Shown here one piece after another: positions 6,137 to 64,000 of a DNA stretch of 64,000 bases. The notes under the pieces were generated by a model. The model was given only the letters and a program-made list of their open reading frames with translations, was not told where the DNA came from and did not search any database. The translations under genes were made by a program, and so were the position numbers. Location: the NCBI RefSeq assembly GCF_001887355.1, contig NZ_MPIN01000002.1, positions 620,001 through 684,000 on the forward strand, read 5' to 3'. This stretch comes from Cystobacter ferrugineus (GTDB lineage Bacteria > Myxococcota > Myxococcia > Myxococcales > Myxococcaceae). Positions within the stretch are counted from its first letter, which is position 1, and the number at the start of each line of letters is the position of its first letter.

Positions 6137-7288
6137 TTACTCCGGGCGGGCCACCTGGAGTTCCTGCCGTGAGGCCCAGGCGCGCAAGTCGTTGCGCTGA
6201 AGGGCCGCGGCCATGAGTTCCGGGAACAGGTCCGGCGTGCATGCGAAGGTGGGGATGCCCAGCGCCGCGAAGTGCGCGGCGTGATGCGGGTCATGCGAGG
6301 GCGTGCCCTGATCGCTCAACGCGAGCAGACACACGACCGTTACGCCGCTCTGGACGAGCGCGGCGGCCCGCTGAAGCATCCGCTGCGCATTACCCCCCTC
6401 ATACAAATCCGTGACGAGCACGAGGATGGTCTGCGCCGGGCGGGTGATGATCTGCTGACAGTACCCGAGTGCCTGGTCGATGTCCGTGCCCCCTCCGAGC
6501 TGGGTGCCGAACAGCAGATCCACCGGATCCGACAACTGCTCGCTCAGGTCCACCACCGCCGTGTCGAAGAGCACCATCTTCGTGGACACCGCCCGCAGGG
6601 ACGCGAGCACCGCGCCGAAGATGCTCGAGTAGACGACCGACGCCGCCATCGAGCCGCTCTGGTCGATGCACAGCACCACGTCCCGCAGGCTCGAGCGCTT
6701 GCGCCCGTGGCCCACCAGCTTGTCCACCACCACGCTCTTGCGCTCGGGCAGGTAGTTGCCCAGGTTGGCCCGCAGCGTCCGGTCCCAGTCGATCTCCGCG
6801 GCCCTCGGCCGGCGCGTGCGCGACGCCCGTGACAGCGCTCCCCGCACGGCCCGCTCGGTGGGGGCCCTCAGCCGCCGCTCCAGCTCGTCCACCACCTTGC
6901 GCACCACCCGGCGCGCCGTCTCCTTCGTCTTCTGGGGGATGACCTTGCGCAAGGACAAGAGCGTGGCCACGAGCTGCACGTCCGGCTCCACCGCCTCCAG
7001 CATCTCCGGCTGGAGCAACATCTCCGTCAGCCCGAGCCGCGCCATCGCATCCCCCTGCATGACGCGCACCACGGGCGCGGGGAAGTACTCGCGGATGTCC
7101 CCCAGCCAGCGCGCCACCTGCGGCGAGGACGCGCCGAGTCCCGCCTTGCGCTCGGAGTCGTACAGCGCCTCGAGGGTGCGATCCATGCGCTTCTCGGTCT
7201 CCCCCAGCGACACCCCCAGCGATTCCTGCGCCGGCTGCCCCAACACCAGCCGCCAGCGCTCCAGCCGCTCTTCATCCGAGGTTTTCAT
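6137..7288 (-). CDS. VWA-domain protein of MoxR/SWIM operon
   Basis: This 383-residue cytoplasmic protein has a helical N-terminal half (about 1-195) and a C-terminal von Willebrand A domain (about 200-360). The metal-site motif DQSGSM is at residues 209-214, with later MIDAS elements in the GGGTDID and VTDLYEGG segments. In MoxR-VWA systems the VWA partner binds clients through the metal site while the AAA ATPase remodels them. It is the last gene of a five-gene minus-strand operon, and its ATG at 7288 lies 17 nt inside the preceding gene. A basic linker (RRVVRKVV, RTRRPR) precedes the VWA domain. Confidence 0.85.
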   Translation of the reverse strand: MKTSDEERLERWRLVLGQPAQESLGVSLGETEKRMDRTLEALYDSERKAGLGASSPQVARWLGDIREYFPAPVVRVMQGDAMARLGLTEMLLQPEMLEAVEPDVQLVATLLSLRKVIPQKTKETARRVVRKVVDELERRLRAPTERAVRGALSRASRTRRPRAAEIDWDRTLRANLGNYLPERKSVVVDKLVGHGRKRSSLRDVVLCIDQSGSMAASVVYSSIFGAVLASLRAVSTKMVLFDTAVVDLSEQLSDPVDLLFGTQLGGGTDIDQALGYCQQIITRPAQTILVLVTDLYEGGNAQRMLQRAAALVQSGVTVVCLLALSDQGTPSHDPHHAAHFAALGIPTFACTPDLFPELMAAALQRNDLRAWASRQELQVARPE

Positions 7289-9500
7289 CGAGCCTCACTC
7301 CCAAGATGAGCGACAGCACGGGCAGCACCTGGGCCACGCGCTCGGGATCCAGATCGTCGGTCCTCACGCTCCGGGCCCCTCCCACCGCGGTGGCGGGCCG
7401 CCGGATGCGATCCGCCATGGCGCGCCGCTCGGCCGCTCCGAAGCGCGAGAACGCACGCCGCACCAGGGGAAGCTGCTCGACGAAGGTCTCCCGCGTGAGG
7501 CCGGAGAGCCAGCCGTCGAGCGCCGCCCATAGATCGTCACGGTGCAGCAGCAGCAGCGCGCTCCCGGTGACGAGCCCCTCCAGCCAGGCGGCCGCCTCGG
7601 CGGGGGGCACCGCCGGAGACAATGCCTTCCGGGCGAGCGGGCCCAGCGCGGCGTCCTCCACGTGGCCCATCTCCACCCGCAGCCGCAGCGCCGCACCGCG
7701 CAGCAGTCCGTGCACCGCGTCCCGTTGCACCAGCCCCTCCAGGGCGTGGGACCACTCCTCCAGGCGCTCCTTGTCCTCCAGCAGCACCATGGCGGCGTGC
7801 AGGGCGCTCAACTGGCCATGGCGCTCGCGCGCGGCGTCTTCATCCAACGCGACGCACGCCCCGGGCAACCCGATGAGGATGCGCTCGAGCAGCCCGTGGA
7901 TGATGGCGAGGATGGGCTCGGTGGGGGTTTCCCGGACGCTGCCATAGCGCACCGTGCGCACCAGGGGCGGGAAGGCCTCCATCAGCTTCGGCACGTCCGC
8001 CGAGCGCGTGGAGAGCTCCTGCACGTGGCCCAGCACGGTGTCGATGGACGCGGACAGCTCGGCGAGGAGGCTCGCCTCGAGCAGGGCCGTCAGCGTGTCC
8101 AGCTCCTTCGCCTCGGCGGCGCGGGCCCTCACCCGGCTCGTGGCCGCCGACTCCACCGTGTTGCCGAAGAGGCTCGCCTCCACGACGCGCACGGCCAGCT
8201 CGGGTTCCCACTTCACGCGCCAGTTCTCACGGAAGGTGCCCTTCGCGTTGCGCGTGTCGTCCTCGGGCGTGCCCCAGGGAATGTCGAGCAGCCGCAGCCG
8301 GTGCAAGAGCCGGCTCCGGCCCCGGTCGAGCTCCTTGCGCAAGTCCAACTCCTGGAGCTTGCTCTCGGACGTGGGCGGCAGGCGCAGCGACTTCTGCAGC
8401 GCGGCCAGATCCCTCGCGAGCGGCACCGCGGGCACGTCGGAGGGCACCTCTCCCAGGCCCGTGCCCACCTCCAACCGGTCGTGCACGAGCGCCAGCGGGG
8501 TCGCGTCCCCCTCGCACAGCACGCTGAGCGCGGCGTCGCGCAGCTCTCCCAACCCCACCGCGCTCCGCCCCCGCAGCGCCGCGAGCGCCTCGGCGAGCCG
8601 CACCGTCTCGATGACGCTCGCGGAGGACGCGTCCAGTCCCTCGCCGCGCAAGAGCTGCGCGATGCGTGCCGCCCAGGTGCTCACCGGCCGCTCGGGGGTG
8701 AGCCACAGGTGCGCATACCACCCGGGGGACTCCACGCCCGCCCCATACCCGCTGCGCCAGCCGAGCCGGTCATACGTCCAGGGAATCCACGTGGCCGCCA
8801 CCTTCGTCTTCGGCAGGCCCTTGAGCAGCGCGTCGTCCTCGCGCGCGGGCCTCGCCTGGACGAGGGCCGGGGCATGCCACGCGCCACACACGACGGCGAT
8901 CCGCTGGAAGCCCTCCTTCCTCGCCTGGCGGATGCAGCGCCGCATGTGCGCCTCGCGCAGGGCCTCGCGCGGGGGAATGTCACCCCCCACCTCGCGCACG
9001 GCCGTCATCGCCTCGAGCACGGCCTCGAAGACGCCCCGCGCGTCCTGGCGTTGCTCGATGAGCTGCTCCCACCATCCCTCGCTGTCCTCGTGGCCGGCCG
9101 CTCGCGCCAGTCCCGCCAGGGCATCCTCCCGGGGCGGCTCCGCCTTCTCCTGGGCCAGGGCCTCGGGGACGAGCTGGTGCGCCTGGGGCAGGTCGATGAA
9201 GCGCACGGGCAGCGAGCGCCCCAGGGCGTACTGAATGGCCTGCCACTCCGGGGAGAAGACGGCGAACGGGTAGAAGACGGCGTGCGCGGGCGTGTCGAGC
9301 GCGTAGACGAGCAGCGCCACCGGCGGCTTCATCCCGGCCTGGGCCGCGAGCGGCAGGAGCTCGTCCGCGTCGGGAGGGCCCTCGATGAGCACCACGTCGG
9401 GTTGGAGCGCTTCCAGCGCGGAGCGCACGCCGCGCGCGCTGCCGGGCCCATGGTGCCGCACGCCGAGCACATGAACGCCCGCGCCCGGCTCCGCGCTCAC
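7272..9500 (-). CDS. DUF5682-like protein of MoxR/VWA operon
   Basis: This is a 742-residue protein with no signal peptide. The N-terminal region carries VLGVRHHGPGSARGV, then VVLIEGPPDADEL, and later VVCGAWHAPALV near residue 210. I recognise this as the DUF5682 family that accompanies MoxR and VWA genes. The His-rich start, the acidic EGPPDA loop and the later GAWHA motif recall TraB/TIKI/ChaN-like hydrolase folds. That link is my inference, not an established activity. The C-terminal 400 residues are helical and Leu/Ala-rich, like a scaffold. The GTG start at 9500 overlaps the MoxR stop (GTGA). Confidence 0.75.
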   Translation of the reverse strand: MSAEPGAGVHVLGVRHHGPGSARGVRSALEALQPDVVLIEGPPDADELLPLAAQAGMKPPVALLVYALDTPAHAVFYPFAVFSPEWQAIQYALGRSLPVRFIDLPQAHQLVPEALAQEKAEPPREDALAGLARAAGHEDSEGWWEQLIEQRQDARGVFEAVLEAMTAVREVGGDIPPREALREAHMRRCIRQARKEGFQRIAVVCGAWHAPALVQARPAREDDALLKGLPKTKVAATWIPWTYDRLGWRSGYGAGVESPGWYAHLWLTPERPVSTWAARIAQLLRGEGLDASSASVIETVRLAEALAALRGRSAVGLGELRDAALSVLCEGDATPLALVHDRLEVGTGLGEVPSDVPAVPLARDLAALQKSLRLPPTSESKLQELDLRKELDRGRSRLLHRLRLLDIPWGTPEDDTRNAKGTFRENWRVKWEPELAVRVVEASLFGNTVESAATSRVRARAAEAKELDTLTALLEASLLAELSASIDTVLGHVQELSTRSADVPKLMEAFPPLVRTVRYGSVRETPTEPILAIIHGLLERILIGLPGACVALDEDAARERHGQLSALHAAMVLLEDKERLEEWSHALEGLVQRDAVHGLLRGAALRLRVEMGHVEDAALGPLARKALSPAVPPAEAAAWLEGLVTGSALLLLHRDDLWAALDGWLSGLTRETFVEQLPLVRRAFSRFGAAERRAMADRIRRPATAVGGARSVRTDDLDPERVAQVLPVLSLILGVRLDENLG

Positions 9501-10582
9501 AGGACCTCCATGCACGCGCGGTAGAGGTCCTTCCACCCCTCACGCTCCTTCACCACCGTCTTGAGGTACTCCAGCCACACCACCCGGTCCTGCACGGGAT
9601 CCTTCACGATGGCGCCCGTGAGGCCCGCGGCCAGGTCCGGAGCCCGGAGCACGCCGTCCCCGTAGTAGCCCGCCATGGCGAGGCCCCCGTTCATCACGGA
9701 GATGACCTCGGCCGTGGACAGCGCGCCCGAGGGCGTCTTGAGCTTCATCGTCCCATCCAGCGTCGCGCCGCCACGCAGCTCGCGGAAGAGGGTGACCACC
9801 CGGCGGATCTCCTCCAGCGCGGGTTTCTCCGCGGGCAGGGCCAGCGCGCGTCCCATCTCCGCCACGCGCTTCTCGACGATCTCCACCTCCTGCTCCAGCG
9901 AGTCGGGGGTGGGCAGCACCACGGTGTTGAAGCGGCGCAGCAGGGCGCTCGACAGCTCGTTCACGCCCCGGTCGCGGTTGTTCGCCGTGGCGATGACGTT
10001 GAAGCCCGCGCGGGCCTGCACCTCGCTGGACAGCTCTGGAACCGGGAGCGTCTTCTCGCTGAGCAGGGTGATGAGGGCGTCCTGCACCTCGCCCGGCATG
10101 CGCGTCAGCTCCTCGATGCGCGCGAGCTTCCCCTCGCGCATGGCGCGCATCACGGGGCTGGGCACCAGGGCCTTGTCCGAGGGGCCCTCGGCGAGCAGCC
10201 GCGCGTAGTTCCAGCCATAGCGCAGGGCCGCCTCGTCCGTGCCCGCCGTGCCTTGCACGAGCAGCGTCGAGTCCCCACAGATGGCGGCGGCCAGGTGCTC
10301 GCTCAGCCAGGACTTGGCGGTGCCGGGCACGCCGTAGAGCAGCAGGGCCCGGTCGGTGGCCAGCGTCGCCACGGCGATCTCCACCAGCCGCGCGTTGCCG
10401 ATGTACTTGGCGCTCACCCGGAAGCCGTCGGGCAGCGTGCCGCCGAGCAGGTAGAGGCGCACGGCCCAGGGCGAGAGCTTCCAGCCCGGGGGCTTGGGCC
10501 GGTCATCCGCCCGGGCGAGCGCGGCCAGTTCCTCGGCGTATTGCTGCTCGGCGTGCTGACGGAGAAGGGCGGTGGCGGTCAC
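9497..10582 (-). CDS. MoxR-family AAA ATPase
   Basis: This 361-residue ATPase has Walker A GVPGTAKSW (about residues 84-92), an EELTRMPGEVQDALITLLSE-like segment after Walker B, and sensor-1 NVIATANNRDRGVNELSSALLRRF. These are classic for the MoxR branch of AAA+. MoxR proteins act as chaperones that load metals or remodel complexes with a VWA partner, which is encoded two genes downstream. The GTG start at 10582 overlaps the previous stop (GTGA). The frame is open far upstream, but that part is a shadow of the DUF5691-like gene. Confidence 0.92.
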   Translation of the reverse strand: MTATALLRQHAEQQYAEELAALARADDRPKPPGWKLSPWAVRLYLLGGTLPDGFRVSAKYIGNARLVEIAVATLATDRALLLYGVPGTAKSWLSEHLAAAICGDSTLLVQGTAGTDEAALRYGWNYARLLAEGPSDKALVPSPVMRAMREGKLARIEELTRMPGEVQDALITLLSEKTLPVPELSSEVQARAGFNVIATANNRDRGVNELSSALLRRFNTVVLPTPDSLEQEVEIVEKRVAEMGRALALPAEKPALEEIRRVVTLFRELRGGATLDGTMKLKTPSGALSTAEVISVMNGGLAMAGYYGDGVLRAPDLAAGLTGAIVKDPVQDRVVWLEYLKTVVKEREGWKDLYRACMEVL

Positions 10583-12084
10583 GGTTTCAGCTCCTCGTGA
10601 AGGGTCCGGCAGAGCGAGACGCTCGTCTGGAAGCGATCGAGCTCCCGCTGCCAGGGGGACAGGGGGGTGGGCAGATGGAAGGGCTCGGCGGCGGCGGCGA
10701 GGCACTCCGCGGGCAGGATGAGCGCGGAGCGCGGGATGGAGGTGAACAAGGCCAGGGCGCGGTTCGTCGTGTCGTTCTGCTGACGAAGGGCCAGCAGCCA
10801 CGCCCGGGCGAGTTCCACCGGCCAGGGCGCGGGCGTCAGGGCGAGGGCGTGCTCCAGGCGGGGCAGGGCCTGCGCTCCACGGAGCACGCGCAGGGTATGC
10901 CCGGCGCGCTCCGAGGGAGGCAGGGCCTCGAACAGCGTGAACGCCAGGGACTCCGCGCGCTCGGGTGGGAGCACCTTGGGGTTCTGGCGAGCCCAGAAGT
11001 CGAGCAGGGCGGAGGCCCAATCCGGGGAAGCCCCCAGGCGCATCGCGTGGGCCCAGCCCTCCGAGAGCCCGATGCCGTCCTCGCTCCGCCCGGCGGCGGC
11101 GACGAGCTGCCCCGGCGTGGCGCCGAACGCACGCTCCCAGGTGGACAAGGGGAGCGCCGACAGGAGCCGCTGGAGCCAGTGCTCGCCCTGGCCGGTGCCG
11201 GCGGGCGGCTTGTCCAGACCATCGCGTTCGGCCTCGGTGTCCCACTTCTCGGGGAAGCGGACGCGGAGCGTCGCGGGCTGCTCCCAATGCAGCACCGCCC
11301 GGGCCCGCTCCTCCATTCGCCGCGCGAAGGCGGACGTGGGCAGCCGGGAGAGCAGCTCCCTGGCCACCTCGCGCACCCCGGCCGCGCGATCCTTGCGGCC
11401 CAGCTCCAGCAGGGGTTCGTCCTCCAGGGAGAGTCCCTGCTTCAGGCTGGAGAGGAACCGGGCGCGGTGCTCGCTCTTCTCCTGGGCGAAGGTGCCCTGG
11501 AGCCAGGCGCGGGCGCGGGTCGGATCCGTGAGCCGGGTCCGCTCGAGCACGGTGCGCCGCTCCTCGAAGGACCCCTCCGTCCACACGCGCTCGGCCTCCT
11601 CGGGAGAGGTGCTGGTGCCGGTCAGCACGGAGCGCCATTCGGGGTGGAGGCGGGCGAGCCACCGGCCCCGTTCGCCCAGCACCGGAACGATCGCCGCGCG
11701 CATCGGTCCTTTGAATCCGAGCATGCGGGGCAGCAGCTCCGGGGGAAGGCGGCGGCGCGCATGGGCCATCCGCTCGAGGATCGCGCCCAGCATCTCGGCG
11801 TCCGCAGTGGCCATGACCTCCACCAGGAGGGCGCTCACGCGGGGAGGGCAGACCTCCAGGGTGTCGGGCGGTGCCGCTTCCCCGGGCGCGCCGAGCTGGG
11901 ACAGACGGCCACCCGCGGCCCGCGCCACTCCCCGCGCTCCGGCCGCGAGCAGCACCCGCTTCTCCACGGACAGGGTGCTCAGGGCACGCGCCGTCTGGCC
12001 CTCCACGCCTCCCAGGGAGTCGAGCTCGGGCGCGTGGGCGGTGCCCAGGAACGCGAGACGCGTCAATGGATCCAGGTCGTTCAC
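10579..12084 (-). CDS. DUF5691-like helical repeat protein
   Basis: This 501-residue soluble protein is Leu/Arg/Trp-rich and made of short helices, suggesting an armadillo/HEAT-like scaffold. I identify it as DUF5691-like mainly from context: that family sits between SWIM zinc-finger and MoxR genes in many actinobacteria, cyanobacteria and myxobacteria. The start VNDLDPLTRLAFLGT is a GTG at 12084, overlapping the SWIM gene stop by GTGA. No catalytic motif is visible. It probably bridges the SWIM protein and the ATPase. Confidence 0.7.
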   Translation of the reverse strand: MNDLDPLTRLAFLGTAHAPELDSLGGVEGQTARALSTLSVEKRVLLAAGARGVARAAGGRLSQLGAPGEAAPPDTLEVCPPRVSALLVEVMATADAEMLGAILERMAHARRRLPPELLPRMLGFKGPMRAAIVPVLGERGRWLARLHPEWRSVLTGTSTSPEEAERVWTEGSFEERRTVLERTRLTDPTRARAWLQGTFAQEKSEHRARFLSSLKQGLSLEDEPLLELGRKDRAAGVREVARELLSRLPTSAFARRMEERARAVLHWEQPATLRVRFPEKWDTEAERDGLDKPPAGTGQGEHWLQRLLSALPLSTWERAFGATPGQLVAAAGRSEDGIGLSEGWAHAMRLGASPDWASALLDFWARQNPKVLPPERAESLAFTLFEALPPSERAGHTLRVLRGAQALPRLEHALALTPAPWPVELARAWLLALRQQNDTTNRALALFTSIPRSALILPAECLAAAAEPFHLPTPLSPWQRELDRFQTSVSLCRTLHEELKP

Positions 12085-13412
12085 CGCGCGCCTCCTCCCA
12101 GGGCGTACAGCGTTCCGTCCACGAGCACGCTCAGCGGACGCAGCCGTTCCCCATCCCATTCGCCGAACACGTCCACCGGGTGGCCACCCGACAGGGCCAG
12201 CAGCTTCCACTGGTCACACGGGCCGAGCCGGAGCGCCGAGCCCGTGGCGTCCTCCCGCAGCCACATCCGCTCCTCGTTCTCCAGCACGGGGACGACGCCG
12301 CCCAGCATCGTCGCCATGCGCTCCTGGAAGGGCTGCCGGGCCAGTTCCTCGGCGAAGCGCCGCTGGAGCGCGTCGAGCGTGAGCGAGGGCAGGGGGCCCG
12401 TCCAGGGCCGGAGGTCTCCCCGCCGCTCCAGGACCTTCGCCCGCTGGGGCGCCGCGCTCGGCCAGTACACGAGCTCCGCGTCGAAGGCGGTGCCCGGAAT
12501 GAGCTTCTCGGAGAACTGCCCGGAGGCCCCGACGGCGAACTGGAGGACGCGGGCCGTCCGGCCGTGGGTGGTGCCGAGCAGCCACGTGCGTTGCTCGCGC
12601 ACGTGCGCCGAGTCGTCCAGCTCCTGGCTGACGACGGCCCAGGTGTCCTGGAGGCGCTCGCCGCGGGCGAGGACGTCCTCGTCGCGCAGCGGGGCGCCCA
12701 CCCGCGCCTGGACATCCGCCGCGAGGGGCGCGGGAAGCTGCTCCATCTTCCGCCAGGCCTCGATGACGAGGGCGATCCGCCCGAGCCGCTCCACGAGGCG
12801 CCGGGGCTCGGGACGTCCCTCCAGCTCTCCCGCGAGCAGACGCAGTTGCGCCGCGAGGCCCGGGCTCTCCGCGTCCACCAGCCGCGCCGCCTGTTCATGC
12901 GCGGGCGCCGCCGTGTCGAGCCGGGCCAGTCCCCCGCGCACGAGGTCCTCCATCCACAGCCCCAGGGCCTCCATGCCCCGGGCCATGCGCTCCTGGCGCT
13001 CGGCGGTGCGCTTGGCCCGGGCCTTCGTGTCCACGGGGGCGGCGCCTTCCGCCGCGGGTGCCGCCTTCTTCGCCGCCTTGCGCTCGGCGGCGGCGGAGCG
13101 TTTGGCGAGCCACTCCTCCACCCAGGTGGGGGGAGTGGCCTGGGGCAGGCGCTCCGCGGCGAGCAGCAGCAGCAACCCGATGCAGTGCTTGCAGGGAATC
13201 TTGCGGCTGGGGCACGTGCACGACGGGGTGAGGTCCGACAGGTCGATGCGTACCTGGTACAGCGCGCTGCCCTGGCACTCGCCCCAGGCGGCGCGCTCGC
13301 CGCGGCCCAAGAGCTTCCACTCCCGCTCCCGCGCGAGCTTCTGGCCGGAGGCCGCCACGGAGGAGTCGGGCGCGAGCGCGAGGGCCTGTTCGGAGGTGAG
13401 GGGGGGAGCCAT
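12081..13412 (-). CDS. SWIM zinc-finger protein
   Basis: This 443-residue protein has the SWIM-type CxCx(n)CxH-like motif CTCPSRKIPCKHC near residues 64-76, in a context (GSALYQVRIDL, then GLLLLLA) typical of the family. SWIM domains bind nucleic acid or protein. An Ala/Lys-rich linker (about 105-140) follows, then a long helical C-terminal region. The ATG at 13412 was chosen: the frame is open 13 codons further up, but MAPPLTSEQALALAPD is the natural start. It is the first gene of the operon and diverges from the methyltransferase across 177 nt. Confidence 0.85.
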   Translation of the reverse strand: MAPPLTSEQALALAPDSSVAASGQKLAREREWKLLGRGERAAWGECQGSALYQVRIDLSDLTPSCTCPSRKIPCKHCIGLLLLLAAERLPQATPPTWVEEWLAKRSAAAERKAAKKAAPAAEGAAPVDTKARAKRTAERQERMARGMEALGLWMEDLVRGGLARLDTAAPAHEQAARLVDAESPGLAAQLRLLAGELEGRPEPRRLVERLGRIALVIEAWRKMEQLPAPLAADVQARVGAPLRDEDVLARGERLQDTWAVVSQELDDSAHVREQRTWLLGTTHGRTARVLQFAVGASGQFSEKLIPGTAFDAELVYWPSAAPQRAKVLERRGDLRPWTGPLPSLTLDALQRRFAEELARQPFQERMATMLGGVVPVLENEERMWLREDATGSALRLGPCDQWKLLALSGGHPVDVFGEWDGERLRPLSVLVDGTLYALGGGAR

Positions 13413-13589
13413 GGTCGTTGGTGCCGGAGAGCATAGCGGTTCGGGTGACACGGCGTGGAGCCGTCAATTTTTTGGACGCACTTCGGGTGCTACAGGATCG
13501 ATCAGACAAAAACAGGCTGGGAATTAGACGTAGCCGATTGTTGCGGCACATTGCCCCCCGTTACCGACGACCCCCCTGACGGAGGCGAG

Positions 13590-14474
13590 ATGTCCGCCGA
13601 AGCCGCAGCTCCTGTCCTGAAGCTCGTTCAGCCCACCCTGCGTGAAAGCCTCTACGCCAAGAGCGATGCGTACCGGCTCTACCAGGGGGACAGCCTCGCG
13701 CTGCTCGAGCAGTTCGAGCCGGGTACCTTCGACATGGTGTTCGCGGACCCGCCCTACTTCCTGTCCAACGGCGGCTTCACCTGCAAGAACGGCAAGCGCG
13801 CCGCGGTGAACAAGGGCGGCTGGGACGTGTCGCGCGGGGTGGAGGAGGACCATGCCTTCACCACCGCGTGGCTCAAGGCCTGCCAGCGCGTGCTCAAGCC
13901 CACCGGCAGCATCTGGGTGAGCGGCACCCAGCACGTCATCTTCTCCGTGGGCTTCGCCATGCAGAAGCTGGGCTACAAGCTGCTCAACACCGTCACCTGG
14001 TACAAGCCCAACGCGAGCCCCAACCTCGCCTGCCGCTACTTCACCCACTCCTCCGAGCTGCTCATCTGGGCGTCGCCCAAGCCGGCCGCGAAGCTCCAGC
14101 ACACCTTCAACTACGCGAAGATGAAGGCGGACAACGGCGGCAAGCAGATGCGCGACGTGTGGGCGCTGCCGCGCTCGGGTGAGGAGGAGTTGAACGCCGA
14201 CGAGTCCGGCCGCGTGTGGACGATGACGGCGCCGCGCAAGGAGGAGAAGGCGCACGGCAGCCACCCCACGCAGAAGCCGGTGTCGCTGCTCGAGCGCGTC
14301 ATCGAGGCGAGCACCCCCGAGGACGCGCTGGTGTTGGATCCCTTCAACGGCAGTGGCACCACGGGCGTGGCGGCGCTCAAGCTGGGCCGGCGCTACGTGG
14401 GCATCGACATGGACGAGAAGTACCTGTCGCTGTCCAAGAAGCGCCTGACCGAGGCCGAGCGCGCCACGCGCTGA
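13590..14474 (+). CDS. Orphan DpnA-like DNA adenine methyltransferase
   Basis: This 294-residue methyltransferase has catalytic DPPY at residues 53-56, before the SAM-binding DPFNGSGTTG (about 250-259). That is the beta-class order for N6-adenine or N4-cytosine enzymes. The stretches DPPYFLSNGGF, PNASPNLACRYFTHSSELL, GKQMRDVWALP and HPTQKPVSLLERVI match the M.DpnA type (GATC adenine) as I remember it. Start ATG 13590 has GGAGGCGAG just upstream; an in-frame extension to 13455 looks non-coding. No restriction enzyme gene is adjacent, so it is probably a solitary regulatory or protective methylase. The GATC target is an inference. Confidence 0.88.
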   Translation: MSAEAAAPVLKLVQPTLRESLYAKSDAYRLYQGDSLALLEQFEPGTFDMVFADPPYFLSNGGFTCKNGKRAAVNKGGWDVSRGVEEDHAFTTAWLKACQRVLKPTGSIWVSGTQHVIFSVGFAMQKLGYKLLNTVTWYKPNASPNLACRYFTHSSELLIWASPKPAAKLQHTFNYAKMKADNGGKQMRDVWALPRSGEEELNADESGRVWTMTAPRKEEKAHGSHPTQKPVSLLERVIEASTPEDALVLDPFNGSGTTGVAALKLGRRYVGIDMDEKYLSLSKKRLTEAERATR

Positions 14475-14478
14475 GCCC

Positions 14479-14901
14479 TCACTTCGTGACGAGTGGGAGG
14501 CTCTGTCCCTCCGGCGCGTGTTTCATCGCCACCGAGTTCATGCAGTAGCGCAGCCCCGTGGGCGGAGGGCCATCCGGGAAGACGTGTCCCAGGTGCCCAT
14601 CACACCGGCCGCATCTCACCTCGGTGCGCACCATCCCGTACGAGACGTCGCGATACTCCGCCACCGCGTCGGGTTTGAGCGGCTGGGTGAAGGAGGGCCA
14701 GCCCGTCCCGGACTCGAACTTCTCGCCCGACTTGAACAGCGGGTTGTTGCAGCCGGCGCAGACATACGTGCCGGGCTCCTTCGTGCCCAGGAAGCAGCCG
14801 CTTCCCGGCCGCTCGGTGCCGTGCTGGCGCAGCACCTGGTACTCCTGGGGATTCAGGCGCTTCTTCCATTCCTCGTCGCTCAGGACCAGTTTGTCACTCA
14901 T
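14479..14901 (-). CDS. msrB: Peptide-methionine (R)-S-oxide reductase
   Basis: MsrB reduces the R-epimer of methionine sulfoxide in proteins. The 140-residue protein has the two zinc CxxC pairs (CAGC and CGRC) and the active-site block [12 protein letters not shown] with catalytic cysteine. It also has the conserved GTGWPSF and [16 protein letters not shown] region. No signal peptide is present, so it is cytoplasmic. The start MSDKLVLSD at 14901 is chosen over an upstream open stretch of poor composition. It converges on the methyltransferase, with only 4 nt between stops. Confidence 0.95.
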
Positions 14902-15003
14902 GCGGGGATCCTGCTGTCCGGTCCTCCCGGGAGCAAGCCCATCGCATGCCCCCGGGCACATGTCCTCCCCGGTTGCCCCAGGTTCTGTTGGCTGCTCCCC
15001 AAG

Positions 15004-18000
15004 CTATCCCTCCTGCTCCAGGACCTTCTGGATTTGAGGCAGGGCGTAGGGCTTGGGCAGGACCACCACCCCCTGCAGGCGCGCGTCCGCGCCGACGAGC
15101 GCCGAGCTTCCGTGTCCCGAGGCGATGACGATCTTCATCCCGAGCTGGAGCCGGATGACTTCCCGGGCCAGCTCCACGCCCGACATGCCCGGCAGTGACA
15201 CATCGGTGAACAGCACGTCGAAGCGCTGGCGCTTGAGCACGCGGCTGGCCTCCTCCGCGCTCCCCACCGCCACCACGTCGTACCCCAAGAGGCCCATCAG
15301 CTCGAGCGCCGAGGTGCGGATGTCCTCATCGTCCTCCACCAGCAGCACCCGCAGGGGCGAAGGCCCTTCCGGACGGGGCGAGGCTTCGGGCGCTCGAGGC
15401 TTCTCGGGGGCGCGTGGGGGCGGCGGAGGCGTCTCCTGCCGTCGCGGGCGCTGGTTGAGCAGTTGCCGGAGCTTGCGCGCCAGGTCCTCCCGGCGGTGCG
15501 GCTTGCTCAACAGGTGGACCCCCGGGTCGAGCCGCCCTCCGTGCACGATGGCGTTCTCCGTGTACCCCGAGGTGAAGAGCACCTCGATTCCCGGCTGCAG
15601 GAGCCTGGCCTGCCGGGCCAGGTCGGTGCTGCGCACCGGGCCGGGCATCACCACGTCGGTGAACAGCAGATCCACCGGGAGGCCGCTCTGGATGATGGCC
15701 AGCGCCCCCTGGCCATCCGCGGCCTTGAGCACGCGGTAGCCCAGGTCCGTGAGGATCTCCACCACCGTGGCGCGCACCTCGGCGTCGTCCTCGACGACGA
15801 GGATGGTCTCGGTTCCTCCCTCCACGGGCCCCTCGGGGAGCTCGTCGAGAGGCATCTCGGCCTGGAAGACACGGGGCAGGTAGATCTTCAGCGTCGTGCC
15901 GTGACCCACCTCGCTGTAGATCTTCACGTGCCCGCCGCTCTGCTTGACGAAGCCATACACCATGCTCAGGCCCAGTCCCGTGCCGCGGCCCTCGGGCTTG
16001 GTGGTGAAGAACGGCTCGAAGGCGCGCTCGATGACCTCCGGGGGCATGCCGCCTCCGGTGTCGGAGACGGCCAGCAGCACGTAGGGCCCGGGCTTCACGT
16101 CCGGGTGCATCCGCGCGTAGCGCTCGTCGAGCCGGGCGTTGCTGACCTCGATGGTCAGCTTGCCCGACCTCTCCATGGCGTCCCGGGCGTTGATGGCCAG
16201 GTTGAGGATGACGTTCTCGAGCTGGTTGGGATCGACGGCCGTGTTCCACAGCCCGCCCGAGATGATGGTCTCCACCTCGACGTCCTCGCCCAGGGCGCGG
16301 CGCAGCAGCTCATCCATCCCGCGCACCAGCCGGCCCAGGTGGAGCACCACGGGGGTGAGGGGCTGCCGGCGGGCGAAGGCGAGCAGTTGCGAGGCGAGCC
16401 GGGCCCCACGTTCCACCGAGTGGATGGCGGTGCGCACACGGCGCATTCCCCGCTCGTTGCCCACCAGGTCGCGCTCCAGCAGTTGGAGGTTGCCCCCGAT
16501 GACCTGCAGCAGGTTGTTGAAGTCATGGGCCACGCCGCCGGTGAGCTTGCCCACCGCCTCCATCTTCTGGGACTGGCGCAGCTGCTCCTCGGTCTGCCGT
16601 TGGTCCGTGATGTCCCGCGCGGTGGAGTAGGTGATCCCCTCTTGTGGCATGGGGACCGCCTTCCAGGACAACAGCCGGTAGGTGCCGTCCTTGTGCCGCA
16701 GACGGTTCTCGAAACGCATGACGGGCTGGCCCTCGGACAGGTGCCGCCGTTCCGCCTGGGTCTTCTCGAGATCCTCGGGGTGCTCCAACCAGGCGGACGT
16801 CTTGCCCAACAGCTCCTCCGGCGCCCAGCCCATGAGGGTGGTCCACGCCGGGTTGACGCGCAGGAACCTGCCCTCGGCGTCCGACACCACCAGCAGATCC
16901 TGCGACACGGTCCAGACCCGGTCGAGCTCGCGCGTGCGCTCCGCGACACGCTGCTCCAGCGTCTCGTTGGCTTGCCGCAGTTGCGCCACGGCCCGTACGC
17001 GCTCACTCGCCGTCCGGACGCGATCGGCCACGTCGCGCAGGAAGTCGATGTCGTCCTGGCTCCACTGGCGCACCTGGTCGTCGTGAAGGTAGAGGAGCGC
17101 GACGAGGCGGCCTTGCTCCATCAGGGGCACGTTGAGCAGCGCCCGGATGCCGAGCACCCGCAGGTTGTCGGCGCCGGCACTCGTCCGCTCGTCGTTCTCG
17201 ATGTCCGGGATGGCGACGGTCTCGCCCCGCTTGAGCGCCTCGATGTAGACGCCATAGTCGGAGAAGCGGTGCAGGCCAGCCACGCTGAAGGTGTCGGAGC
17301 GGGAGATCCAGTCCCGCTCGATCTCCAGGTACTGCTGAGTGGCGTCGAACGTGCCGTATCCCGCGCGCAGGATGCCCAGCAGCCGTCCGACCCGCTCCAT
17401 GGCGGTACCCGCGATGTCGGCCGTGTCGGTCAGGTCGCGCAGCTTGTCTCCGATCTCGACGACGGCCGCCTGGCGCAGCTCGCCCTGTTTGCGCTCGTCG
17501 ATGTCCATCAGCAGGCCGGGAAAGCGCAGCGGCTGGCCGTCGGCGCCGAGCTCGCAGTGGCCGTTGGCCTCGATCCAGAAGAAGGGCCCTCCCCGGGTGC
17601 GGCGGACGCGGTACTCGCAGCGGTAGGGTCCACCCGTGTGCAGCGTGAGGCGCGTCTGCTCCTCGACACGGACGCGATCCTCGGGGTGGACGAATGCCCC
17701 GTACTCATCGATCGGCAACCCCCGGGCGGCCTGCTCCGGCGTGAGCTCGAAGGTCCGCGCGAACCGCTCGTCACCCGTGAGCAGACCGGCCGGGATGTTC
17801 CACACCCACGTGCCGAGCACCGAACCCGCGTTGAGCGCGATCTGGAGCCGCTCGTTGGTCTCGCGCAACCGGTCCTCGGCGGCCCGGCGCTCCGTCACGT
17901 CCTGCACGACACCGAGCAGCCGGAGGGGGTAGCCCTTCTCATCCCGGAGCATCTCGCTGCGCCGGGCAATCCACCGCACCTGTCCCGAACGGGCCTGGCG

Positions 18001-18744
18001 GATCCGGTACTCGGCCCGGGCGTTCACCCGGCCATGCTCGCGGAACTCCACGGTCGCGGCGTGGTGCAGATCCTCGGGGAGGAGCGTCTCCTCGATGGCC
18101 TCGGCGGGGGGATGCTCCGTCGACTCGATGCCATACAGCCGGCAGAACTCCGGCGTCACGGTCAACACACCGGTGCTCAGCTCCAGCGTGAACACGCCAA
18201 TCCCCCCGACTTCCTGCGCGAAGCGCAGATGCCGTTCCCGCTCGCGCAGGCGCTCCTCGGCCTCCCGGCGGGCGGTGATGTCCTGGGTGACGCAGATGGC
18301 GAACTTCGGATGGCCCCGCGCGTCCCGGGCGAGCGAGACGTGGTTGTTGACCCACACCACGGAGCCGTCGGGCCGCACGTTGCGCTTGTCCACGGAGTAG
18401 GGCTCGCCCGTCTCCAACAGCCTCCGCCACTGGGTGGCATGCGCCTCGCGATCGTCGGGATGCGTCAGGGATTGTTGGGAGCGGCCAATCACGTCCTCGA
18501 GCGCACGCCCGACGATGTCGCAGAAGCGCTGGTTGGCCATGACCAGCGTGCCGTCGAGCGCGCGCTGGGTGATGCCCACGCTCGCCTGGTTGACGAGCAT
18601 GTTCAGACGCTCCCGATCGTCTTCTCGCTGAGCCTCGCCCGGCTCCTGGGCGCCCCCCCGGTGGGGGATTCCAGGGGCCATGGGTGCTTCGTCTTCGACC
18701 TTCAACGAGGGCTCCAGACCAGGGGGAGGCGGACTCAGAGTCAT
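15004..18744 (-). CDS. Multi-PAS/GAF hybrid histidine kinase with two receivers
   Basis: This is a 1246-residue soluble hybrid kinase. Order: PAS1 (about 46-160), PAS2 (165-290), PAS3 (298-418), GAF (425-580), coiled coil, PAS4 (610-720), HisKA with phospho-His in AHDFNN (His740), HATPase (840-957, with [17 protein letters not shown] and GTGLGL), receiver 1 (Asp1030) and receiver 2 (Asp1181) after a Pro-rich linker. There are no membrane segments, so signals are cytoplasmic. Two C-terminal receivers suggest a phosphorelay to an unlinked regulator. No response-regulator output gene is adjacent. It diverges from the CHI-like gene. Confidence 0.92.
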
Positions 18745-59822: not shown

Positions 59823-61067
59823 ATGGAATTTCCTCAAGAGTATCAGGCACTCACATCCGCACCTATGGATCATACCCCGCTCTCAGAATCCACCTTCTGT
59901 GCTCTGTGCCCCAACCCTCTCGACGGTTCCGACGAGCACATCCTCCTGAGCGCATTGGGAGGGCGTCTACACTCGCGAAAGGTCATCTGCTCTGGCTGCA
60001 ACACCAAGCTGTACAGCACTACCCTGGATAGCGAACTGGCGTCTGCCCTGGGGTACTTCATCACGGTCCTGAATGTACTGCCCGGTCGTGGGGGCGAGCC
60101 CCCTCCTTTCCGAGGTGTGCAGATGCAGGACGGGACTCCGGTCGCTTTGCAGCCAGGTGGTCTGCCGGTCCTCTCCAAACTCCAGTACTCGCAGGAGACG
60201 CTGCCAGACGGGAAAACGCATGTCTCCATCAACGTGGGCGATCCGTTCTTGGGCAAGCCGCTTCGGAACACGCTTGAGGGTGTGGCGCGCAAGGCCAACA
60301 AGACTCCTGAGGAGCTTCTCCAGGGTCTCACGTTGGAGCGCACCTCCGAGTACGCCGACTTCAAGGTGAGTATCTCCCTCGGAGATCCTGCCCATCTCAG
60401 AGCCATTGCAAAAATGGGCATTACCTATGCTGCCTATCACCTGGGCACCGACATCGTGCGGGAACCACAGTTCGAGACCATCCGCACCTTCGTCACTTCG
60501 GGCGTCGGCGAGGACCTTCACTTGGTGAGCAATGCGAATGCCAATGTCTTCCCAACTCTACAGGACCTGCACGCTCAAGAGCCGCCCTTTCATAGGCTGT
60601 TCCTCTCCTGTAATCCGGACACAGGCGTAGTGTCTTTCTTCGTAGATCTCTTCGGGGCCTTCTGCTTCAGCGTCCTCTTGAGCAAGCAGTGGTCGGGACC
60701 GAGGTTCGCTGCGGCTTACAGTCAGGACCCGCTCAAAGGAGGGCGAATGGAATCCTTCGACTTGGCGCCAAACAGTGCAACGGTTGCAGAGTTCCTCGAC
60801 CGCAAGTTCGACACGAACTCGTTCCAGCAGCGCTTCAACCAACTACTGGCCTTCACCGACAAACACCAGCGCGATGCCGCATTGCGCAATGTAGTGGAGC
60901 GGACCGTCAAGGAAGTTCAGCAGGCGATCGCCGACGGCATGAGCGAAGAGGATGCAAAGAAGGTCCTCTCAGCACTTATCGGCCAGCGCGTGGCCGATCA
61001 CATCTTTCGTATCCCGACGCGCACACCCGTTACAATAGCTGAGATCCTTGGGAAAAAGCGCAAATAG
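59823..61067 (+). CDS. HNH-type endonuclease-like protein
   Basis: This 414-residue cytoplasmic protein's N-terminus holds a zinc/HNH-like module: CALC, then DEHILLSALGG, then ICSGCN at about residues 26-60. It resembles HNH_5-type proteins, in which the EHI/EHIL histidine is catalytic. The following 350 residues are mixed alpha/beta and unrecognised, ending in a basic GKKRK tail. ATG 59823 has only a weak ribosome site. Codon use is less GC3-rich than in core genes, which suggests transfer with the island. A defence or effector nuclease role is inferred from the module and location. Confidence 0.65.
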   Translation: MEFPQEYQALTSAPMDHTPLSESTFCALCPNPLDGSDEHILLSALGGRLHSRKVICSGCNTKLYSTTLDSELASALGYFITVLNVLPGRGGEPPPFRGVQMQDGTPVALQPGGLPVLSKLQYSQETLPDGKTHVSINVGDPFLGKPLRNTLEGVARKANKTPEELLQGLTLERTSEYADFKVSISLGDPAHLRAIAKMGITYAAYHLGTDIVREPQFETIRTFVTSGVGEDLHLVSNANANVFPTLQDLHAQEPPFHRLFLSCNPDTGVVSFFVDLFGAFCFSVLLSKQWSGPRFAAAYSQDPLKGGRMESFDLAPNSATVAEFLDRKFDTNSFQQRFNQLLAFTDKHQRDAALRNVVERTVKEVQQAIADGMSEEDAKKVLSALIGQRVADHIFRIPTRTPVTIAEILGKKRK

Positions 61068-61498
61068 ACCCGCTCCGCCCCGAACATGGCTGTGAGTACA
61101 AGGAGACGTTTCAGCTTACCAGCACCTAGTTGGCTCTTTGAGGGCTCTCCCCTGTCGGGTTCCATCCGGGTTGGAGGACTCGCTGGAGCGGCAAGTTCAA
61201 TACGCCACTAACTGGGGGAGAGCCACCAATGGAGGAATCTCGCAAGTAGGTTTGAGCCAGAGTTTCGCGCACGAGTCGACAGCGTCAATTAGCAGTTGCC
61301 AGAGGTCCCACCCCCGTGCCGTGCTCCTGGGTAGAACGGCCTGGGCTGGCGTGTGCCTCCAGCGGTGCGCGTCAAGGGACCTATCGAACCTCACGTTCTG
61401 CCCCTCGGCAGGACGGTTACAGCTTCTTCGAGCAAAGCTGGGATTGCGTTGTGGCGCCAAGGACCATCCTCAGGTATGGTGATGGTGTGAGGTGACAT
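61068..61498. other. Intergenic region without recognisable gene
   Basis: These 431 bases between two island genes show no convincing coding frame. A 114-codon plus-strand frame at 61138-61482 is Ser/Arg/Cys-rich and lacks a ribosome site. The last ten bases contain GAGGTGA (61489-61495), the ribosome site of the following gene. Confidence 0.45.
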
Positions 61499-62791
61499 AT
61501 TACTCTTTCATCAGAACAACTCCTAGCCCTTCACGAAGCTGTGCTCGCCACGTTCTCGCGGTCTGAGTGGCAGCAGCTTGGTCTCATTAGCGGAGAGTCG
61601 GACTACATCGGCTCTCACGACCGACTCCTACGCAGCCTGGACTTCAACGATGAAGATTATTCCGGCCATGCCTTGAGAGCGATCAAGCGGATCGCTGAAG
61701 GCAAAGGCGGGGCATGGGCATTTCTTCAGATCCCCCAGCTCAGAAACTGGCTGGCCCAAGAAAAGCCTGCGATTCTGCCTGCACTTGAGCATCTTTCGAC
61801 ACAAGTTCCCCCTCAATTAGTCTCCAATGCAGGGCAGCTTTTGGCTCTGGCCGAAGGAGTCAAACAAACATTCAAAGAGGATGATTGGCTTAAGCTGGGC
61901 ATTATTTCATCCTTTGCTGATAAAATCGAACATCATCCACGTCTCCTTAGGAGCCTGCGCTTTGGGGATCCTGACTACGAAGGTTGCGTCATGGAGATCC
62001 TTGGGATGATGGAAAAGCAGAGCAAGCCCGTGCAGGAAATCCTCGGTGGGTTTCAAAAGTTACGAGATTGGCTGTCTGAAAATCACCCAGACATAGCACG
62101 GTCTTTGTGGGCATCGGCTGAGCGTGCTAATGCCAATGTTTCTCCCCAGCCCAATCTCGGGAATCCACAATTTCCCCCGACATTGCCGGGTGCATCACAA
62201 GCATCGCCAAGCCACTTCGACCCAGTGCCGAGAGAGCAAACGCAATTGTTTTCAACCGAGCCTTCGCTCTCCAGTTTGCTGGCGACAGTGCAGGCAGTTG
62301 CTGTGGGGACCGAAAATGCCACAGCCTACCATCGAGCAGTCGAACAACTATTGTCGACGCTGTTTGCTCCAGGCCTTTCTGAGCCGACCATAGAAGATCG
62401 CCTGCATGAAGGGCGCAAGCGTGTTGATATTACTTATGTAAACCGAGACGCTCACGGCTTTTTCCGGTGGATTACGGATCATTACCCGCCAGCGCCATAC
62501 ATCTACGTGGAGTGCAAGAACTACAGTGCGGATCCTGGAAATCCTGAACTAGATCAGCTTACTGGGCGGTTTTCCCCCAAGAGAGGAAGGGTTGGGTTGC
62601 TCATTTGTCGGAGTTTCACCAACAAAGATCTCTTTATAAAGCGCTGCCATGACTCAGCCCTAGATGACCGTGGTTTTGTAATTCCTCTGGACGATTCAGA
62701 TTTGGCTAATTTGGTTAATGCAAAATTGCATGAGGGCGATGATGGGGTGGTCCGCACCTTGAGGTCGAGGTGGGCTCGTCTTGTCAAGTGA
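61499..62791 (+). CDS. PD-(D/E)xK nuclease with duplicated helical domain
   Basis: The protein has about 430 residues. Two helical repeats of about 95 residues align: QLLALHEAVLATF...LGLIS...RLLRSLDFNDEDYSG, then QLLALAEGVKQTF...LGIIS...RLLRSLRFGDPDYEG. After a Pro/Ser/Gln linker (about 210-250), the C-terminal domain has RKRVDITYVN and YIYVECKNYS, a restriction-endonuclease-like D...ExK site. The duplicated part resembles effector-associated adaptor domains of conflict systems. The first repeat begins before the first GTG (61541). The only start candidate after TGA 61493 is ATT 61499, with GAGGTGA 3 nt upstream. GTG 61541 is the fallback. Confidence 0.7.
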   Translation: MTLSSEQLLALHEAVLATFSRSEWQQLGLISGESDYIGSHDRLLRSLDFNDEDYSGHALRAIKRIAEGKGGAWAFLQIPQLRNWLAQEKPAILPALEHLSTQVPPQLVSNAGQLLALAEGVKQTFKEDDWLKLGIISSFADKIEHHPRLLRSLRFGDPDYEGCVMEILGMMEKQSKPVQEILGGFQKLRDWLSENHPDIARSLWASAERANANVSPQPNLGNPQFPPTLPGASQASPSHFDPVPREQTQLFSTEPSLSSLLATVQAVAVGTENATAYHRAVEQLLSTLFAPGLSEPTIEDRLHEGRKRVDITYVNRDAHGFFRWITDHYPPAPYIYVECKNYSADPGNPELDQLTGRFSPKRGRVGLLICRSFTNKDLFIKRCHDSALDDRGFVIPLDDSDLANLVNAKLHEGDDGVVRTLRSRWARLVK

Positions 62792-62981
62792 CACTCAATG
62801 CCGCCTGCGCTTCTGACGGGAAGCTGCTGGCTGCCCCGCTGCCCTGCACACTCCCGGCAGGAGTCAGGGCAACCCGCTCAAGCCGCTACGCACACGTCCT
62901 GACGTCCTGGTCAGCCCCCCCCCCCCCCCTGCGCGAAGCAAAGCGGCAGCGGCGCAGGGGTGGGTGAGCCGAGCAAGCGCG
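62792..62981. other. Convergent intergenic region with C15 tract and hairpin
   Basis: Between convergent genes lies a run of 15 C (62915-62929). It partly overlaps an inverted repeat, CCCTGCGC (62927-62934) with GCGCAGGG (62952-62959). The hairpin may be a bidirectional terminator. The homopolymer is prone to length change and to sequencing error. Confidence 0.5.
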
Positions 62982-63470
62982 TCACCGGAACGCATCAACG
63001 ATAAACGCGGCTGCGACAGATCCTTCGAGGATGGCGGTTCCAGGCTTGGACTCGGGCAGCTTCCGCATCTGGTCATAGCCGAGCCGTGCCACCGCACAGA
63101 GGGGAACTTTCTCGCCCGTTGGTGACTGCGCTTCGTAGTACCGGATCACAACTTGGGGACCGCTCGTCCAGACCTGCCCATACAGGCGGCTCGTCGCCGC
63201 GAACGGGCCGAACTCCTCCCTTGTGACACTCTCAATGGGTCCATCGTAGAATGTGACGCGTCGGCTCTCTGTCTGGTTCGCGTCGAGATCCACCAATACG
63301 CTGTCCCCAACGCGCAGTCCCATGTAGCGCATCGCCTTCTTTGACTCCTCCGGGCACTCCTGTGGACTCGGACTGCCGTCGGGGCGCAGTGCTACGCCGC
63401 TCCCGATGCAGCCGGTCGAGAAGGCGAGCAGGGCGGTAGAGGTGAGCAAGAGAGTTCTAGCGGTGTGCAT
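62982..63470 (-). CDS. Myxobacterial lipoprotein next to DUF2381 gene
   Basis: This 162-residue lipoprotein has start MHTARTLLLTSTALLAFSTGC and a clear lipobox (STGC). The mature part is beta-rich (GDSVLVDLDANQTESRRVTFYDG, QVVIRYYEAQSPTGEKVPLCAVARLG) and ends with a hydrophobic SVAAAFIVDAF. I recall this type beside DUF2381 genes in myxobacteria, but its function is unknown. ATG 63470 has GAGG 8 nt upstream. It begins 11 nt after the DUF2381 stop, so the two form an operon. Confidence 0.75.
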   Translation of the reverse strand: MHTARTLLLTSTALLAFSTGCIGSGVALRPDGSPSPQECPEESKKAMRYMGLRVGDSVLVDLDANQTESRRVTFYDGPIESVTREEFGPFAATSRLYGQVWTSGPQVVIRYYEAQSPTGEKVPLCAVARLGYDQMRKLPESKPGTAILEGSVAAAFIVDAFR

Positions 63471-63481
63471 GGCCGACACCT

Positions 63482-64000
63482 CTACTTCCGAATCAGCGTG
63501 TGTTCCATCCTCACGTAAACTTGAAGCAGGCCATCGCCACGGAAAATCTGGAGGGCGAGATCGGAGAGCTGTCCGTCGTCAGTCTGAAAGGCTCTCTTGT
63601 CCACTACAACCGCGATCCTTCCTGTTTCCCCCTCGACGATGCTGCTTCGGTCCATGCGAAGCGCGAAAGGCCGAAGCGTGTAGTGGGTGAAGTCACGGGT
63701 CAGGTAGGCACCATCGAACTTCCAGGGCTCGCCGTAATGGGTGTTCTTCAAGGTGACGAGTGCTGCCGCTTTGCCAGGGCCTTCGAAGACTTCGACGACC
63801 ATGTCCATGTCCTGATTTTTTGGCCGGTAGACCAACCTGCGGCGAAACGGCGTTTTCTTTACCTGCCCGTTCGCGAGCAGCGTCGCGTAGGCGTGGTCGA
63901 TGGAGTTTTCTTCCTGCTTGAGCCGCTCGTTCTCCTCGTTCAGTTTGTGCTCTCGCTTGAGCGAGTCATAAAGGCCCGAGAGGACCGCGTTGTAACTGTC
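63482..64000 (-). CDS. DUF2381 family protein, 5' end beyond window
   Basis: The frame is open from the right edge to a stop at 63482 and gives the C-terminal 172 residues. A charged coiled-coil-like part (SLKREHKLNEENERLKQEENS) leads into TLLANGQVKKTPF. A beta domain follows with VYRPKNQDMDMVVEVFEGPGKAAALVTLKNTHYGEPW, then RMDRSSIVEGETGRIAVVVDK and a final DLALQIFRGDGLLQVYVRMEHT. This is the myxobacterial DUF2381 (TIGR02268-like) paralogous family of exported proteins; its role is not established. The start and any signal peptide lie outside the window. Confidence 0.8.
   Translation of the reverse strand, partial: DSYNAVLSGLYDSLKREHKLNEENERLKQEENSIDHAYATLLANGQVKKTPFRRRLVYRPKNQDMDMVVEVFEGPGKAAALVTLKNTHYGEPWKFDGAYLTRDFTHYTLRPFALRMDRSSIVEGETGRIAVVVDKRAFQTDDGQLSDLALQIFRGDGLLQVYVRMEHTLIRK

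Follow-up and report, generated by a model that had tools for sequence, protein, structure and literature searches.

What shared task do five overlapping genes perform that lie on the minus strand, at 13412-6137, of a 64,000-nucleotide stretch (the window) of the 12 Mb Cystobacter ferrugineus genome? Their order in the window sequence is SWIM-DUF5691-MoxR-DUF5682-VWA, and Pfam assigns a family to all five proteins, as follows.

12081..13412, minus strand: SWIM gene, 443 aa, ATG start (Pfam SWIM, 5e-7)
10579..12084, minus strand: DUF5691 gene, 501 aa, GTG start (PF18944, 2e-115)
9497..10582, minus strand: MoxR AAA+ ATPase gene, 361 aa, GTG start (AAA_5, 4e-38)
7272..9500, minus strand: DUF5682 gene, 742 aa, GTG start (PF18934, 2e-261)
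6137..7288, minus strand: VWA_CoxE-like gene, 383 aa, ATG start (PF05762 [VWA_CoxE], 3e-50)

Coordinates, strand and families all match the preliminary description of this DNA, which recognized a five-gene operon whose junctions comprise three GTGA overlaps and a single one of 17 nt. The three 4-nt stop/start overlaps appear as TCAC (= GTGA) on the plus strand, at 12081-12084, 10579-10582 and 9497-9500; the DUF5682 and VWA genes overlap by 17 nt (7272-7288), and inspection of the sequence places a GGAGG/GAGG-like ribosome site just upstream of each of the four internal starts. Short gene overlaps are frequent in bacterial operons. The fixed stoichiometry that had been read into these overlaps is rejected, because overlap lengths vary among relatives (the publicly annotated Rhizobium cassette has overlaps of 4, 8 and 11 nt and one 3-nt gap) and because Streptomyces splits the operon: in five actinobacterial loci, SWIM-DUF5691 is divergent from MoxR-DUF5682-VWA, i.e., the cassette forms two transcripts. 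The overlapping genes suggest translational coupling only and do not fix stoichiometry.

Genes for a divergent N4/N6 DNA methyltransferase (13590-14474) and MsrB lie beside the operon, at 13590-14961. Both are kept in three congeners and missing at the loci of three relatives from other genera, and the methyltransferase was therefore rejected as an operon partner and treated as neighborhood only. Elsewhere in the window, 15004-18744 encodes a large hybrid histidine kinase that combines several PAS domains with a GAF domain and receiver domains, and the G+C content of 60001-64000 (approximately 0.57, versus 0.63 to 0.74 in the remainder) makes foreign DNA possible there.

A genome collection was scanned with a DUF5682 alignment, and the 80 loci closest to the window, a non-random sample, were retained. 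Gene content was called with iterated profiles inside each fetched stretch, several incomplete loci ending at contig edges. All five genes were present in 63 of the 80 loci and on the same strand in 58. The cassette spans approximately ten phyla: Chloroflexota, Cyanobacteriota, Bacteroidota, Planctomycetota, Pseudomonadota, Actinomycetota, Armatimonadota, Verrucomicrobiota and Deinococcota, together with a deltaproteobacterial metagenome-assembled genome (MAG). In Deinococcus taeanensis and Rhizobium sp. K102, public annotation, which is independent of our own profiles, has the identical five-gene order. Such recurrence across phyla and in independent annotation is far beyond what chance would produce, and the cassette is, by these comparisons, real and ancient. 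The order of the genes was also checked in close relatives and is conserved rather than scattered. Clustering of flanking genes returned, as recurrent neighbors, only generic ABC transporter ATPases and histidine kinases, synteny blocks of Streptomyces and a DUF4132 gene. One Thermomicrobiales locus (L038, 5900-9010) has two additional open frames, on the same strand, separating MoxR from DUF5682.

Within the Myxococcota, presence is patchy (61 of 193 genomes). DUF5691 scored above the cutoff in 14 of the 193, which are exactly those with a window-type DUF5682; these 14 genomes are related and so do not represent independent co-occurrence events. A sister set of genes, yehLMPQ, is found in 5162 of 5426 Escherichia coli genomes (95%), where it is chromosomal and nearly always single copy. 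The earlier suggestion that such clusters recur in developmentally complex bacteria therefore holds in part, as Deinococcus, Comamonas, Delftia and Rhizobium carry the cassette too and nearly all E. coli genomes have the yeh type. The only “phage” record with a DUF5682 gene is an unverified faecal scaffold (L208; MT835988.1), which may be bacterial DNA, and no verified phage genome carrying the cassette was found.

Three subtypes can be distinguished. Type A is the window layout, SWIM-DUF5691-MoxR-DUF5682-VWA; type B has the arrangement seen in E. coli, where WGR/DUF4132 genes lie upstream of yehL-yehM-yehP-yehQ; and type C, found in relatives from the family and order of the window's host, consists of MoxR-DUF5682-VWA and then a SWIM protein of approximately 970 aa, which, in the one member scanned, ends in HEAT repeats (HEAT_2, 2.8e-21). 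The subtypes split in a DUF5682 tree built by a quick method, in which long branches leave deep placement unsure. The host genome contains a second, full operon of type B (L004, 4443-16200), encoding a WGR-DUF4132 protein, MoxR, DUF5682, VWA and a two-finger SWIM protein. In four type A loci of Chitinophagaceae, a DUF4132 gene directly follows the VWA gene, and in locus L095 a DUF4132/HEAT gene (11412-14417) lies within the cassette, between DUF5682 and VWA; two of the three DUF4132 proteins scanned from these loci match HEAT_2. These matches and that of the type C protein therefore suggest that every subtype joins one HEAT-like element (DUF5691, SWIM-HEAT or DUF4132) to a MoxR/DUF5682/VWA/SWIM core.

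Adjacent cassette genes are also fused. SWIM and DUF5691 form a single frame in Planctomycetota (L054, 4782-7742), Actinomycetota (L093, 5083-7938) and Pseudomonadota (L061, 4967-7762), and DUF5682 and VWA form a single frame in locus L120 (7237-11805). Along with the type C SWIM-HEAT protein, these fusions are the best in silico evidence for contacts and support a probable physical association of the products. Conserved order, perfect co-occurrence and gene fusions agree with the initial view of the five genes as one functional unit.

The window MoxR is, by sequence comparison, a YehL-clade ATPase. It is 43% identical to E. coli YehL over 349 aa, and in the tree it forms one clade with 13 other cassette MoxR proteins and YehL (support, 100/97), outside which fall RavA and the MoxR paralogues of its own genome. 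YehL is named as one of seven MoxR subfamilies (PMC3893208). The linked VWA, DUF5682 (YehM) and SWIM (YehQ) genes expected of a YehL-subfamily operon are present at the window locus; the upstream WGR-DUF4132 gene of the E. coli layout is absent, with DUF5691 in its stead, and is present in the second copy. The P-loop (G.PGTAK) is conserved in cassette MoxR proteins and intact in that of the window. The MIDAS of the VWA protein is likewise intact (D209-x-S-x-S, T268 and D294), with these residues kept in at least 97% of 104 relatives. A chaperone-like MoxR-VWA pair, as proposed at the outset, is supported, its ATP-dependent hexameric activity being putative. Characterized pairs work on dedicated complexes (PMC13036017 and PMC3893208), and in NorQD a VWA finger enters the AAA+ pore for ATP-driven remodeling that leads to iron insertion (PMC13036017).

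The DUF5682 protein carries the candidate active site. Its AF2 model, built with 48 relatives (pLDDT, 90.5), contains an alpha/beta domain (residues 1-221) and an alpha-solenoid (approximately residues 398-742). The TraB/ChaN-like His motifs remarked on earlier proved robust, as RHH.P and G..H are unchanged in all 48 diverse relatives. Across these sequences, which include all three subtypes, R15, H16, H17, P19, E40, P42, R182, G206 and H209 are invariant, and G13 is found in 45. In the model, H16/H17, E40 and H209 directly follow strands 8-14, 36-39 and 200-206, which are the positions expected for the catalytic His, Glu and His that TIKI enzymes combine with a shared basic residue (PMC6254334). 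DUF5682 has the TIKI/TraB/ChaN signature: G-x-x-H following strand 1, E following strand 2, and Arg plus G-x-x-H near the last core strand. TraB relatives fetched from Myxococcota have invariant G9, H12, E38, E139, R213, G236 and H239. The window protein is only 25% identical to YehM, yet the catalytic motifs are common to both, the YehM equivalents being GIRHHSP, LIEGP and GGWH. In the fusion of locus L120, the first motif reads PIAHASP, so that R15 and H17 are lost, while H16, E40 (ELPVD, as in TraB) and GxxH are kept.

With hhalign, DUF5682 aligned to TraB at an E value of 7e-4 (probability, 27%), with the first two motifs aligned, and to ChaN at 1e-3 (22%) over 169 columns, where it is the first and the last motif that fall in register; control profiles without relationship gave 0.1 to 0.3%, and the positive control, TraB versus ChaN, gave 94.5%. 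ChaN was the most frequent subthreshold Pfam relative of DUF5682, at best 0.022 and in 3 of 48 sequences. A VIA structural comparison matched residues 1-216 to HopBA1 (5t09; Z 7.6, rmsd 4.3, 149 residues aligned), a TIKI member (PMC6254334), and residues 6-221 to 7w5z_E (Z 9.5), both Z scores being rated middling by the tool. The N-terminal domain surfaced in this comparison only; the C-terminal solenoid takes up most structural-match rows of the model, Foldseek gave no match at an E value of 0.001 or better, and a PDB sequence-profile search with DUF5682 or the SWIM protein returned nothing useful. The N-terminal domain is probably TIKI-like, an assignment limited by the subthreshold profile scores and middling structural Z scores. 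It shares the GxxH, E, R and GxxH signature and the strand order of the TIKI/TraB/ChaN/erythromycin esterase superfamily but differs in having RHH in place of one His, a fused alpha-solenoid and only subthreshold profile similarity. Catalysis, presumably hydrolysis of an amide or ester, is less certain than the fold, and some TIKI-fold proteins are without the catalytic set (PMC6254334).

The two remaining proteins are candidate adaptors. In the SWIM protein, the zinc finger residues C65-x-C67 … C74-x-H76 (C65, C67, C74 and H76) are invariant in 42 relatives, and the AF2 model (pLDDT, 92.8) consists of the SWIM finger, a helical linker and predicted tandem OB folds (approximately residues 245-434). 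Residues 3-113 match ZSWIM8 with a Z of 8.9, clearly above the next row, and for residues 245-434 the top rows are mostly OB or HIN proteins (Z, 5 to 6.3), including RPA70 and MNDA as tandem pairs. LEF-3 matched the OB region at 8e-4; Pfam gave no OB match on the SWIM proteins except Phage_base_V, in 2 of 42 at 0.09. The C-terminal half is predicted to hold tandem OB folds, which lends structural plausibility to the nucleic acid binding first suggested for this protein, while binding itself remains putative. DUF5691 is HEAT-like and a probable scaffold: HEAT_2 matched 13 of 40 members (best, 1.4e-5) and HEAT matched 6, the window's own DUF5691 having no match at an E value of 0.1, and a profile search of the PDB gave short, weak matches, including alphaRep.

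The reading that we prefer, with a probability of roughly 0.45, is that the operon encodes a YehL-type AAA+ machine in which the MoxR-VWA pair is the motor of a TIKI-like hydrolase, itself brought to nucleic acid or nucleoprotein by a SWIM/OB-HEAT adaptor. The parts are supported by sequence and models, and from them we infer the activity, substrate and complex. The five proteins would assemble into one complex, with the SWIM/OB and HEAT proteins acting as its adaptor on nucleic acid or nucleoprotein. The VWA MIDAS would capture an acidic peptide belonging to the client (or to DUF5682), a MoxR hexamer would use ATP to remodel the captured client, and DUF5682 could then hydrolyze an amide or ester bond in the client so presented. 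Against this reading, the searches yielded no homologue that has been solved or tested biochemically, the Streptomyces cassette is in two transcripts, and OB folds may bind proteins or sugars instead of nucleic acid. A role in stress or DNA damage is only a lead: in Deinococcus radiodurans, the WGR/DUF4132 proteins DR2173 and DRA0166 are upregulated on DdrO depletion (PMC8533742), which hints at a DNA damage link for the DUF4132-associated forms only.

The main rival, which we consider somewhat unlikely, is that MoxR-VWA is a maturation chaperone of the NorQ-NorD, CoxD-CoxE or RavA-ViaA kind, inserting metal into or activating DUF5682 or another metalloprotein, with the SWIM/OB and HEAT proteins as assembly factors rather than nucleic acid adaptors. 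Like the window operon, NorQ-NorD, RavA-ViaA, CoxD-CoxE and CbbQ-CbbO have a MoxR ATPase gene linked to that of a MIDAS-bearing VWA protein; the window MoxR belongs to a different clade, from which RavA is excluded with support, and the operon adds hydrolase-like, SWIM/OB and HEAT subunits. In favor of the rival, the window VWA is CoxE-like, the dedicated complexes served by known pairs and the iron insertion driven by NorQD offer precedents, the His and Glu residues of DUF5682 could bind metal, and the DUF5682-VWA fusion fits a client-chaperone link. Against it, SWIM/OB or HEAT partners are not mentioned for characterized maturation pairs in the accessible parts of the sources, the adaptor genes are conserved in the cassette as much as the motor, and the TIKI enzyme VvRRSP is metal independent (PMC6254334). 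An even less likely alternative takes DUF5682 to be a nonenzymatic ligand binder with a ChaN-like fold, e.g., for haem, in an operon serving as a stress or metal sensor or a transcription regulator. ChaN, the recurrent Pfam relative, is annotated for haem-binding uptake in the Tiki superfamily, and a link to molybdate use was once drawn for the YehI/YehH relatives (DUF4132/WGR), as cited in PMC8533742. We regard this as the least probable of the readings, since the full putative catalytic set (H, E, R and GxxH) is invariant, not a ligand subset, and no DNA-binding transcription factor domain was found by Pfam in the five proteins.

An anti-phage or conflict system with DUF5682 as effector is also improbable. 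MoxR-vWA pairs form the core of the ternary conflict systems found in many multicellular bacteria (PMC7159879), which, like the window operon, add further conserved proteins to that core, and the patchy distribution in Myxococcota would suit such a role. The third components and fused effectors differ, however, and the bpMoxR match is below the cutoff. Pfam found no VMAP, iSTAND, FtsH or beta-propeller partner and no VWA-fused effector among the five proteins, and PADLOC gave weak matches only (PDC-S62 on the SWIM region; IetA/mad8 on the ATPase). The chromosomal, single-copy sister genes of nearly every E. coli genome and the lack of a verified phage genome with the cassette are further points against it. 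A defense system is thus disfavored by both the PADLOC result and the distribution.

Part of this system has been named before. The YehL MoxR subfamily and the E. coli genes have names and the families are in Pfam as DUFs, but they are functionally unstudied; a literature search, with most subscription journals outside it, found no paper on DUF5682 or DUF5691 and apparently only passing mentions of yehLMPQ. The MoxR, DUF5682, VWA and SWIM genes are common to yehL-yehM-yehP-yehQ and the window operon. The E. coli locus has the WGR-DUF4132 genes yehF/yehH/yehI upstream, for which the window operon has no counterpart, whereas the latter starts with SWIM-DUF5691, has one SWIM finger and encodes its HEAT-like protein separately. 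New here are the predicted TIKI/TraB/ChaN-like N-terminal domain and alpha-solenoid of DUF5682, the predicted tandem OB folds of the SWIM protein and the HEAT-like nature of DUF5691.

A bolder form of the preferred reading, which we consider doubtful, is that the cassettes constitute a new class of protease or esterase, powered by an AAA+ ATPase and without relationship to Clp, Lon and FtsH: MoxR-VWA would feed a TIKI-fold His/Glu hydrolase, SWIM/tandem-OB on a HEAT scaffold would recruit it to nucleic acid or nucleoprotein, and the three subtypes would swap the HEAT element (DUF5691, SWIM-HEAT or WGR-DUF4132). In an operon that spans about ten phyla and whose E. coli form is nearly universal in that species, a likely active site, a likely nucleic acid adaptor and a HEAT scaffold have now been named, which makes an anonymous conserved cassette testable by point mutants in E. 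coli. If the bolder form is true, this protease or esterase class would be spread over bacteria as different as E. coli, myxobacteria, streptomycetes and cyanobacteria.
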